A stretch of DNA of 64,000 nt. Origin: Gemmatimonadota bacterium. GTDB taxonomy: Bacteria > Gemmatimonadota > Gemmatimonadetes > Longimicrobiales > Gaopeijiaceae. The stretch is taken from assembly GCA_030428885.1 (NCBI GenBank), contig JAUIEJ010000003.1:372001-436000 (forward strand). Reading direction: 5' to 3'. How positions within the stretch are numbered: the first letter of the stretch is position 1; every line of letters begins with the position of its first letter. The notes beneath the pieces were generated by a model. The model had not been told where the DNA came from, did not search any database, and was given only the letters and a program-made list of their open reading frames with translations. Both the position numbers and the translations under genes were made by a program. This document shows, piece by piece, positions 25,949 to 28,658 of this stretch.

Positions 25949-27409
25949 ATGCGCGTGCGTTTTCCTCCCTCGCCTACGGGATACCTCCACGTGGGTGGGG
26001 CCCGGACCGCCCTCTTCAACTGGCTCCTGGCCCGGGGCCGGGGCGGCACCTTCGTGCTCCGCATCGAGGACACGGACCGGGAGCGGTCCAGCGAAGCCCA
26101 CACCCGGGCGATCCTGGACGGGCTGACCTGGCTCGGCCTGGAGTGGGACGAAGGCCCCTACTTCCAGAGTGACGGGGTGGAGCGTCACCGGGCCGAGGCC
26201 CTTCGGCTCCTGGCCTCGGGCCGGGCGTATCGGGACTTCACCGACCCCGACGCCCTCCGGGCCGAGGCCCAGGCCCGGGGCATCGGGCACCCCAGCATCC
26301 TGGCCCGGGAGAAGGCCGACGCCCTGGGGGCCGACGAAGCCCGGCGCCGCGCCGAAGCGGGCGAACCCCACGCCCTCCGGCTCCGGGTGCCCGAGGGCCG
26401 CACCGAGTGGGACGATCTCGTCCACGGCGCCATGTCGTTTTCGAACGCCGATCTCGACGATCTGGTGATCTTGCGCAGCGACGGGTCGCCGGTGTACAAC
26501 CTGGCCGTGGTGTCGGACGACGCCGACCAGGGCATCACCCACGTGATCCGGGGCGACGACCACCTGTCCAACACGCCGAAGCAGATCCTGCTCTACCGGG
26601 CGCTGGAGGTCCCGGTGCCCGTCTTCGGCCACGTCCCCATGATCCTGGGCCCCGACGGCAAGCGTCTGTCGAAGCGCCACGGGGCCACGGCGGTGGGAGA
26701 CTACGCGGCCCAGGGCATCCTTCCCGAGGCCATGGTGAACTTCCTGGCGCTCCTGGGCTGGAATCCCGGCGACGAGCGGGAGGTCATGGGGCGGGACGAG
26801 CTCGTGGCGGCCTTTTCCATGGACCGGGTCCAGAAGAAGAGCGCCGTCTTCGACACCGACAAGCTGCTCTGGCTCAACGGGCGGGTGCTGGCCGAGGCCG
26901 ATCCCGCCGTGCTGGTGCCTCTGGTCCTGGACCGCCTGGAGGCCCACGGGTGGGCGCCGGCCCGGTGGGGGCCCGGCGCCCCCGCCCCCGACGGGCCCGG
27001 ATTCCGGCGGCTCGTGGGCCTCCTGGCCAGCCGGGCCCGGACCGTGGACGAGCTGGCGCTGGACGCCGTGCCCTACCTGGCCGACGACCCCGAGCGGGAC
27101 CCCGACGCCGTGGCGAAACACTGGGCGAAGGACCCCCAGGCCGCGGCCCGGCGCCTCGAGGCGGCGCTGGAGGCGGCCACCGCCGGGCCCTGGGACGAGG
27201 AGTCCCTGGAAACCCGCCTCCGGGCGTGCGCCGAGGAACTCGGGGTGGGGGCCGGAAAGCTCATCCACCCCCTCCGCCTGGCCGTCACGGGCCGGAGTCG
27301 GAGTCCCGGGATCTTCGAGGTCCTGGTTCTGTTGGGCCCGAACCGGGTACGGACGCGGGTGGAGCGAGCCCTCGCGTACCTCCGTGCGCCGGACGTTTCC
27401 CTTTCTTGA
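25949..27409 (+). CDS. gltX: Glutamyl-tRNA synthetase
   Basis: 486 aa from the ATG at 25949, starting directly with RVRFPPSPTGYLHVGGARTA (HIGH-like motif HVGG). The second signature KRLSKRHG is near residue 237. The C-terminal helical anticodon-binding domain includes LGVGAGKLIHPLRLAVTG, typical of bacterial GluRS. Because the neighbour upstream is GlnRS, this enzyme can be strictly glutamate-specific. The end overlaps the -35 box of the promoter for the next gene. Confidence 0.97.
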   Translation: MRVRFPPSPTGYLHVGGARTALFNWLLARGRGGTFVLRIEDTDRERSSEAHTRAILDGLTWLGLEWDEGPYFQSDGVERHRAEALRLLASGRAYRDFTDPDALRAEAQARGIGHPSILAREKADALGADEARRRAEAGEPHALRLRVPEGRTEWDDLVHGAMSFSNADLDDLVILRSDGSPVYNLAVVSDDADQGITHVIRGDDHLSNTPKQILLYRALEVPVPVFGHVPMILGPDGKRLSKRHGATAVGDYAAQGILPEAMVNFLALLGWNPGDEREVMGRDELVAAFSMDRVQKKSAVFDTDKLLWLNGRVLAEADPAVLVPLVLDRLEAHGWAPARWGPGAPAPDGPGFRRLVGLLASRARTVDELALDAVPYLADDPERDPDAVAKHWAKDPQAAARRLEAALEAATAGPWDEESLETRLRACAEELGVGAGKLIHPLRLAVTGRSRSPGIFEVLVLLGPNRVRTRVERALAYLRAPDVSLS

Positions 27410-27435
27410 CACGGGTTCCCGGGCAAGATTAGTCT
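27406..27435 (+). promoter_or_regulatory. Candidate promoter of the LexA-family gene
   Basis: TTGACA (27406-27411) overlaps the gltX stop codon, and TAGTCT (27430-27435) follows after 18 bp. The spacer contains the GC palindrome CCCGGG. The predicted leader is about 70 nt. I see no clear repeat that would mark a self-operator, though LexA-type proteins usually bind their own promoter. Confidence 0.45.
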
Positions 27436-27513: not shown

Positions 27514-28167
27514 ATGCCCCAGGGGATGACCGACATCGAACGGAAGATCCTGGATTACATGGTGATGTATCTGAGGTCGAACACCTACCAGCCGTCGATC
27601 CGGGAGATCGGCGAGCGGTTCGGCATCAAGAGCACCAAGACGGTCTCGGAACATCTCCAGGCGCTGGCCGACAAGGGCTTCCTGGAGCGGGATCCGTCCC
27701 GATCGCGGGGTGTGCGCATCCTGGGGGTGGATCTCCAGCCCGACGCCGTCACCGTGCCCTGTTTCGACGGGCTTCCCGGCGACCGCGTCGCCTCGTCGGC
27801 GTCGGCCGAGGACCACCTCACCGTGGACCGTCGCCTCGCCGGCACCAAGGGTTCGTTTTTCGTGCGGTCCCGGGGCGACGAACTGGCGGTGCTGGGGCTG
27901 GTGGAGGGCGACTGGATCCTGCTGGAGCCCGCCGGCGTCCACGAGGTGCCCGACGGGGGCGTGGTGGCGGCCGAGATCGGCGGTGCGCCGGCCTCCTACC
28001 AGAAGGTGTCCCGCAACGGTCGCGGCGTGTACGTCCAGGGCCTGCGCCCCGGCGACGCGCCGGTCCACGTGGAGGATCCGTCCCGGATTCGGGTCCTTGG
28101 ACGGGTGGCGGGATTCGTCCGCCGCTTCGACGGACCCACCGCTCCGGTGAGCCTGACGGCCCACTGA
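27514..28167 (+). CDS. LexA-family repressor with degenerate S24 protease domain
   Basis: 217 aa from the ATG at 27514, chosen because GGAG lies 5 nt upstream; a GTG at 27475 would add 13 residues. The winged-helix N-terminus is a good LexA match (MTDIERKILDYMVMYL, QPSIREIGERFGI, TKTVSEHLQALADKGFLERD). The C-terminal half aligns with the LexA peptidase domain but lacks its active parts. The catalytic Ser is Glu123 (RSRGDELAV), the catalytic Lys aligns with Gln163 (SYQKV, Lys164 next to it), and the Ala-Gly cleavage bond is Pro88-Gly89. It should therefore dimerise and bind DNA but not self-cleave in the SOS response. It could be a non-SOS regulator as in some cyanobacteria. Confidence 0.85.
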   Translation: MPQGMTDIERKILDYMVMYLRSNTYQPSIREIGERFGIKSTKTVSEHLQALADKGFLERDPSRSRGVRILGVDLQPDAVTVPCFDGLPGDRVASSASAEDHLTVDRRLAGTKGSFFVRSRGDELAVLGLVEGDWILLEPAGVHEVPDGGVVAAEIGGAPASYQKVSRNGRGVYVQGLRPGDAPVHVEDPSRIRVLGRVAGFVRRFDGPTAPVSLTAH

Positions 28168-28178
28168 CGGGGCGGGGG

Positions 28179-28658
28179 TTGCTCCGGTCCGGCGACCGGG
28201 CCTTCATGGCCCGGGCTCTGGAGATGGCGCGAAGGGCCGCCCTCCACCACGAGGTTCCCGTGGGGGCGGTGCTCGTTCGGGAGGGCCGCATCGTGGCCGA
28301 GTCCCACAACCGCACCGTCACCGACGCCGATCCCACCGCCCACGCCGAAACCGTCGTGCTGCGGGCGGCGGCCCGTGCTCAGGGGGACTTCCGCCTCGAG
28401 GGCACGACCCTCTACGTCACCCTGGAGCCCTGCGCCATGTGCGCCGGAGCCATCGTCCTGGCCCGGGTGCCCCGGGTGGTCTACGGCGCTCCCGACCCCA
28501 AGGCGGGCATGGCGGGTTCACTGGGCGATCTGCTCCGGGATCCCCGACTGAATCACCGGGCCGAGGTGGTGGGAGGGGTGATGGCCGACGCGTCCGCCGC
28601 GCTGCTCCGCGGGTTCTTCCGGGCGCGGCGATCGCCGGCGACCCCTGGCCGCGGGTGA
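28179..28658 (+). CDS. tadA: tRNA-specific adenosine(34) deaminase
   Basis: 159 aa from the TTG at 28179, behind a G-rich ribosome-binding stretch. An ATG at 28206 is possible but would remove the conserved first helix (DRAFMARALEMARRA). Zinc ligands and catalytic Glu lie in TAHAETVVL, and PCAMCAGA supplies the two Cys ligands. The enzyme converts A34 to inosine in tRNA-Arg(ACG). PVGAVLV and TLYVTLEPCAMC are family signatures. It starts 11 nt after the LexA-family stop and is probably on the same transcript. Confidence 0.95.
   Translation: MLRSGDRAFMARALEMARRAALHHEVPVGAVLVREGRIVAESHNRTVTDADPTAHAETVVLRAAARAQGDFRLEGTTLYVTLEPCAMCAGAIVLARVPRVVYGAPDPKAGMAGSLGDLLRDPRLNHRAEVVGGVMADASAALLRGFFRARRSPATPGRG

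Follow-up and report, generated by a model that had tools for sequence, protein, structure and literature searches.

The window analysed here is a stretch of 64,000 nucleotides of a Gemmatimonadota bacterium, taken from a genome of 5.4 Mb that is 95% complete (G000). It contains a gene for a LexA-family protein that starts with the ATG at 27514, ends with the TGA at 28165-28167 and encodes a product of 217 amino acids. The protein was named LexA2, and its gene lies between gltX and a tadA-like gene. The features of the locus are collected in Table 1.

Table 1. Features of the lexA2 locus, in coordinates of the window.
Feature	Position	Strand	Basis
gltX (glutamyl-tRNA synthetase), conserved upstream neighbour	25949..27409	+	named from sequence, not from a family search; synteny
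Probable sigma-70 promoter of lexA2: TTGACA 27406-27411, 18-nt spacer, TAGTCT 27430-27435	27406..27435	+	sequence only
lexA2, LexA family without the autoproteolytic residues, 217 aa	27514..28167	+	ORF, profile models, alignment
Winged-helix DNA-binding domain, residues 4-66	27523..27711	+	Pfam LexA_DNA_bind, 1.5e-19; alignments; strongly conserved class-wide
Degenerate S24/dimerisation domain, residues 77-204	27742..28125	+	AlphaFold strands 78-202, Foldseek; no Pfam S24 hit
Cys83 codon, sole Cys of this LexA2, kept in 92/94 family members	27760..27762	+	family alignment
Pro88-Gly89 in the former cleavage loop (no Ala-Gly)	27775..27780	+	alignment
Glu123 codon, catalytic Ser column (E. coli Ser119)	27880..27882	+	alignment
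Gln163 codon, catalytic Lys column (E. coli Lys156)	28000..28002	+	alignment
C-terminal Thr-Ala-His; terminal His in 89/94 family members	28156..28164	+	family alignment
tadA-like tRNA adenosine deaminase, 11 nt after lexA2	28179..28658	+	named from sequence; synteny

The N-terminal half of LexA2 matched the Pfam LexA_DNA_bind model (PF01726) with an E-value of 1.5e-19 and 70 bits (cut-off 23.7), in agreement with the first-pass annotation of this DNA, where this half had been called canonical. The NCBIfam LexA equivalog TIGR00498 matched residues 4-205 with 113.2 bits, which is barely above its cut-off of 110.95, and the Pfam S24 search reported no match even at E 0.1. The retention of the S24 fold, which had also been claimed, is supported by the predicted structure. 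The AlphaFold model showed a mean pLDDT of 89 and a pTM of 0.65, and in Foldseek it matched full-length LexA, while the C-terminal domain alone matched LexA C-domains with a target-normalised TM of about 0.67-0.75. The best solved relatives of LexA2 were LexA proteins, including those of Pseudomonas, E. coli, Mycobacterium and Thermotoga.

The catalytic columns were placed by aligning LexA2 with E. coli LexA, the LexA1 of the same genome and many orthologues. In these alignments, Glu123 and Gln163 of LexA2 stand opposite Ser119 and Lys156 of E. coli LexA, as had been read from the sequence earlier. The accompanying claim of Pro88-Gly89 instead of Ala-Gly stood only in part. The loop reads GLPGDR in the window and has neither an Ala-Gly nor a Cys-Gly scissile bond, but it cannot be taken as a residue-for-residue swap, as the loop is unalignable in the window's family (f1), where its consensus is ‘LPxx’ and close relatives show PD, PT or PE. 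The Ser-Lys dyad was present in none of the 94 unique f1 proteins; in the Ser column Asp or Glu predominate (62/94), and in the Lys column His, Tyr or Phe (82/94). The proposed loss of self-cleavage is thus supported as far as sequence allows, and the alignment across the phylum, which had been suggested as a check, found the loss conserved throughout f1. LexA2 combines the loss of dyad and cleavage site with a fold that is predicted to be kept, as in the non-cleavable Synechocystis-type LexA, and judged by these alignments it is a LexA-family member by descent and not a self-cleaving LexA.

The two halves of the protein have evolved differently. In 22 genomes that carry both paralogues, the mean identity of the DNA-binding half was 84% for LexA1 and the same for LexA2, and that of the S24 half was 73% for LexA1 and 43% for LexA2. 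The conservation of the DNA-binding half while the S24 half of LexA2 drifted suggests that LexA2 functions through DNA binding. The S24 half is nevertheless still constrained by the measures of sequence evolution: the nearest-pair dN/dS of lexA2 was 0.13 for this half and 0.095 for the whole gene, values that rest on one close pair because wider pairs were saturated and left unused, and D105, P139, G196 and R203 are fixed in the window's family, with C83 and the terminal His near-invariant. The recognition helix reads KSTKTVSEHL in LexA2 as against SSLATVHEHL in LexA1, and this difference makes it likely that the operator of LexA2 is different from that of LexA1.

A search for another LexA with Ser and Lys in the genome, as the first-pass annotation had advised, found a canonical LexA1 at C8:590306-590914 of G000, in which VAAG, GNSM and VKK, and so the Ala-Gly bond, the Ser and the Lys, are all intact. 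LexA1 was detected in nearly all of the 200 Gemmatimonadota genomes sampled. Its promoter contains two direct repeats of TTCGG-N6-TTCGG (G000:C8:590241-590282; L221 and L222), and this pattern occurred at 29 sites in G000 compared with 6 for the reversed control. The box was clear upstream of lexA1, uvrA, imuB, dnaE2 (which reads as PHP + Pol III alpha), a radical-SAM gene and a DinB-family gene, at sites including L210, L217, L219 and L232, and recA (L278) has it with one mismatch. The LexA1 box of Gemmatimonadota thus appears to be the direct repeat TTCGG-N6-TTCGG with an 11-bp period, and through it LexA1 appears to control lexA1, recA, uvrA, imuB and dnaE2. Direct-repeat LexA boxes occur in Alphaproteobacteria, and our literature search found no published SOS box of Gemmatimonadota. 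The lexA2 promoter has no LexA1 box, the best candidate having 2 mismatches and lying inside gltX. Because the box stands at the SOS genes, the SOS response would be in hands other than those of LexA2, and the earlier suggestion of a non-SOS role for LexA2 thereby gains indirect support. In one f1 genome of genus g16 (G161; 2 contigs, 92% complete), two protein searches detected only the non-cleavable LexA2 and no LexA1, which reflects either an assembly gap or a genome in which a LexA unable to self-cleave is the only one; the fragmented genome G143 resembles it.

LexA2 was found in 46 of the 51 genomes of f1, in f2 and f3 of the same order and in f5 and f9 of the same class, and the sampled genomes of f4, f6, f7, f8 and f10 gave LexA1-like matches only, with at most isolated exceptions. 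The closest relatives among the genomes listed were MAGs labelled Longimicrobiales, Gemmatimonadales or Gemmatimonadetes. In the tree, the LexA2 proteins formed one clade separate from LexA1. The gene gltX was immediately upstream of lexA2 in 114 of 140 loci and in all five families, some genomes being counted twice, and tadA downstream is conserved in f1, f2, f3 and f9. By phylogeny and synteny, LexA2 is an old LexA paralogue across five Gemmatimonadota families. Several variants of the locus were also seen. In an f5 subclade with dead LexA2 (L060, L065-L071), lexA2 starts at -17 to +22 from the gltX stop codon, and with its start within a few bases of that stop it seems to be promoterless and coupled to gltX. 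Two f2 genomes (L037, L038) have a tRNA-like stretch between gltX and lexA2, read by eye as GGCAACACGCCTGAyTCTGGATCAGGAGAGTCCTGGTTCGATCCCAGGAGGGGCA. A clear Gemmatimonadota-type lexA2 locus also occurs in a MAG labelled Gammaproteobacteria (Ww582; L165, JAHEKL010000093.1), which is probably a mislabelled bin or a contaminant contig.

Of the 161 unique LexA2 proteins, 24 retain the Ser-Lys dyad, distributed as 5/5 in f3, 19/54 in f5, 0/5 in f2, 0/3 in f9 and 0/94 in f1, and all but one of these 24 proteins also keep the Ala-Gly. The shared locus beside gltX indicates that the intact and dead proteins are orthologues and not separate acquisitions. On a LexA2 tree built without the catalytic columns and without cyanobacterial sequences, the distribution of the dyad requires six or more changes of state, a count that is approximate since this was a quick tree with many weakly supported branches. 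Because LexA1, E. coli LexA and scattered LexA2 lineages are intact, these changes are best read as losses, so that the dyad would have been lost repeatedly within Gemmatimonadota LexA2. The intact orthologues at the same locus in other families place this repeated loss within one gene lineage, which was beyond the view of the first-pass annotation.

The -35 element of the probable lexA2 promoter overlaps the gltX stop codon in the window, and this layout is conserved in much of f1. The conserved f1 pattern TTGACA-18-TAGNNT was unique in the genome, and a stricter scan that needed 9 of 12 matches reported no promoter at lexA2. In f1, tadA starts within about 15-160 nt after lexA2, and this short gap suggests that both genes are probably co-transcribed. 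As a candidate operator the f1 promoter region was rejected: its conserved element is the promoter itself, and otherwise there was no enriched dyad. A palindrome shared upstream of the orthologues, which the first-pass annotation had proposed to look for, was accordingly not found for f1, and a candidate was seen only upstream of intact f5 orthologues. The de novo dyad search over 0.86 Mb of the genome gave no convincing palindrome, most hits being codon-periodic artefacts, and ranked the LexA1 box eighth among the direct repeats. Neither the promoter comparison nor this search found an operator, a target gene or a regulon for f1 LexA2.

The f5 candidate is the palindrome GTACG-N4-CGTAC at the lexA2 promoter of some dyad-intact members. 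The pattern was read off by eye from L044, L047, L055 and L057, and three loci outside the derivation (L254, L265 and L268) match it with 0-1 mismatch. The matches at this level come from three genera, which limits their independence; in Markov shuffles, every match had 2 or more mismatches. Of the 17 sampled f5 genomes with intact LexA2, 11 contained the exact GTACGNTTYCGTAC, at 17 sites in total, compared with 4 sites in the other 33 genomes and none in the eight f1 genomes among these. Genome-wide, GTACG-N{3,4}-CGTAC was not above its control, and the GTACGNTTYCGTAC sites had no shared target gene besides lexA2, some of them lying in near-identical orthologous regions. This distribution makes a self-operator at lexA2 likely for some of the intact f5 orthologues and for no others. 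Autorepression by the intact LexA2 ancestor, in f5 at least, is also likely, with the dead f1 lineage doing without that loop. In the genome of the window, a pair of GTACG-N3-CGTAC palindromes stands in tandem as GTACGTTTCGTAC-CT-GTACGATTCGTAC at L294:8877-8904 (G000:C8, about 308877), upstream of a divergent gene that reads, from its sequence, like a PadR-family regulator. It is probably that regulator's own operator, and it was set aside as a LexA2 target as it precedes the regulator gene.

We consider it reasonably probable that LexA2 is an ancient LexA paralogue which was retired from SOS and now acts as a stable, RecA-independent dimeric repressor of a separate gene set. It would bind DNA through the LexA-type winged helix as a dimer, dimerisation being expected from homology, with the S24 domain serving as a dimerisation scaffold that no longer self-cleaves. 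Without self-cleavage, RecA could not trigger the removal of LexA2 after DNA damage, and the cell's canonical LexA1 would run the SOS response. LexA2 would be made from a housekeeping-type promoter, probably along with tadA, and would act by repression, which like the identity of its separate target genes is presumed here. Its occupancy would be set by its concentration, a modifying signal or a partner protein rather than by autoproteolysis, the mode of release being likewise presumed.

Two readings would make the missing residues less meaningful. LexA2 could still self-cleave through shifted or different residues, as Ser119 and Lys164 of the window protein sit a few residues off the expected catalytic columns, Lys164 being next to Gln163. 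Among 83 family sequences, however, 86% have Ala at position 119 and 80% have Arg at position 164; no Lys column of the C-terminal half is conserved in more than 40%, and Ser is best conserved at position 80, where the window protein has Thr. Thus no conserved Ser/Lys pair exists in the family, shifted catalytic residues were rejected, and continued self-cleavage is extremely unlikely. It is also very unlikely that lexA2 is a decaying gene that lost catalysis since it no longer matters. The fast evolution of its S24 half, the repeated loss of the dyad and the five f1 genomes in which lexA2 was not detected (G035, G100, G110, G122 and G154) would fit with decay, but this reading is largely refuted by a DNA-binding half conserved as well as that of LexA1, the low whole-gene dN/dS, the fixed residues and tail, and a reading frame that is open in the 46 other genomes.

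The remaining alternatives concern how LexA2 is released, and here Cys83 and the C-terminal tail have to be weighed. Cys83 lies in the first S24 strand, about five residues ahead of the former cleavage loop. In the first f1 set it was present in 83/83 and the terminal His in 82/83 proteins; 15 further genomes, fetched regardless of Cys/His, raised the set to 94 unique proteins, among which two lack Cys83 and five genomes of one genus (g5) lack the terminal His. These residues have been kept while the remaining S24 domain drifts. Cys83 is the only Cys in 51 of the 83 proteins, and both Cys codons (TGC/TGT) and His codons (CAC/CAT) vary in f1, so the constraint acts on the protein. The tail mostly ends in T-x-His and is 21-22 residues long from G196 in 80 of 83 proteins; it is predicted by AlphaFold to be flexible, and in L166, where it has an Ala-rich insertion, the end is still TAH. 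In f3, two LexA2 members have the terminal His, one of them also Cys83, and the others have neither; in f5, a few members have either feature and the remainder none.

The first-pass annotation had offered a constitutive repressor or one that senses something else, and either may hold. These patterns make Cys83 and the terminal His candidate replacement inputs and favour some retained input or partner. They suggest that LexA2 is more than a passive scaffold, and this counts against the stable-repressor reading given above. A new switch may then have replaced autoproteolysis, with Cys83 working by thiol oxidation or as a metal or cofactor ligand and/or the T-x-His tail docking a protease, an adaptor or a partner. 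We regard this as possible but doubtful: the link of either residue to a ligand or protein is hypothetical, Cys83 lies in a core strand and may be structural, both features have exceptions within f1, and in f5 and f9 the dyad was lost with, for the most part, neither feature being acquired. The bolder proposal that the f1 lineage rebuilt LexA, the Cys by the dead loop and the T-x-His tail forming a new redox, metal or proteolysis input over a widely conserved non-SOS regulon, is a speculative one that we hold to be unlikely. Release by an antirepressor, itself possibly under LexA1, would follow the precedent of Tum of phage 186 and the Gifsy antirepressors, which are LexA-controlled and bind non-cleaved repressors (PMC3121763), and 186 CI was among the fold matches of LexA2. 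It is improbable here, as no candidate antirepressor gene is linked to lexA2, whose neighbours are gltX and tadA, and the locus is not phage-like. A phage origin of lexA2 was rejected, the viral contigs having given just two distant matches to the DNA-binding domain.

By analogy, the stable repressor proposed here is most like the LexA of Synechocystis sp. PCC 6803 (sll1626). That protein has neither the Ala-Gly site nor the catalytic Ser, is not an SOS switch and acts as a repressor of salt-stress genes and others outside SOS, perhaps with tuning by phosphorylation (PMC7567884). Both proteins join a LexA DNA-binding half to an S24 half without Ala-Gly and Ser. The Synechocystis protein is described as the cell's LexA, whereas LexA2 accompanies an intact LexA1 as a second LexA and has lost the Lys as well, Cys83 and the C-terminal His are nearly fixed, and intact orthologues exist at the same locus in related families. 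Canonical LexA, as in E. coli, Mycobacterium and the LexA1 of the same genome, has the same domain order, winged helix and S24 fold, and LexA2 differs from it in the absence of dyad and Ala-Gly, in its recognition helix and in a promoter without the LexA1 box. The LexA2 of Leptospira interrogans is also a second LexA, but its Ser and Lys are retained together with a Cys-Gly bond, its level falls after UV and it is encoded in a prophage-like region of one serovar only (PMC3789691), whereas the Gemmatimonadota gene has a conserved locus and the dyad is absent. Repressors of the phage 186 CI and Gifsy type resemble LexA2 in not being inactivated by self-cleavage, but have other DNA-binding domains and LexA-controlled antirepressors, of which none was found linked to LexA2. 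IrvR of Streptococcus mutans is a LexA-like regulator outside the RecA/SOS paradigm (PMC7101444) that still autocleaves at Ala-Gly, which LexA2 is not expected to do. The non-canonical LexA proteins of Bacteroidetes retain both S24 signatures (PMC8565304).

As lexA2 passes the LexA equivalog cut-off, it warns against annotating every LexA match as the ‘SOS repressor’. A few cyanobacteria are known to have a non-cleavable LexA. Across Gemmatimonadota, a single orthologous gene with a shared syntenic position occurs in intact as well as dead form, in addition to an intact LexA1. The surprise lies in this class-wide syntenic series, in the uneven conservation of the two halves and in the new near-invariant residues. 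The LexA2 series offers a natural route to ask how a repressor that is inactivated by stress becomes permanently stable, and what then becomes of its operator, self-regulation, regulon and signal.
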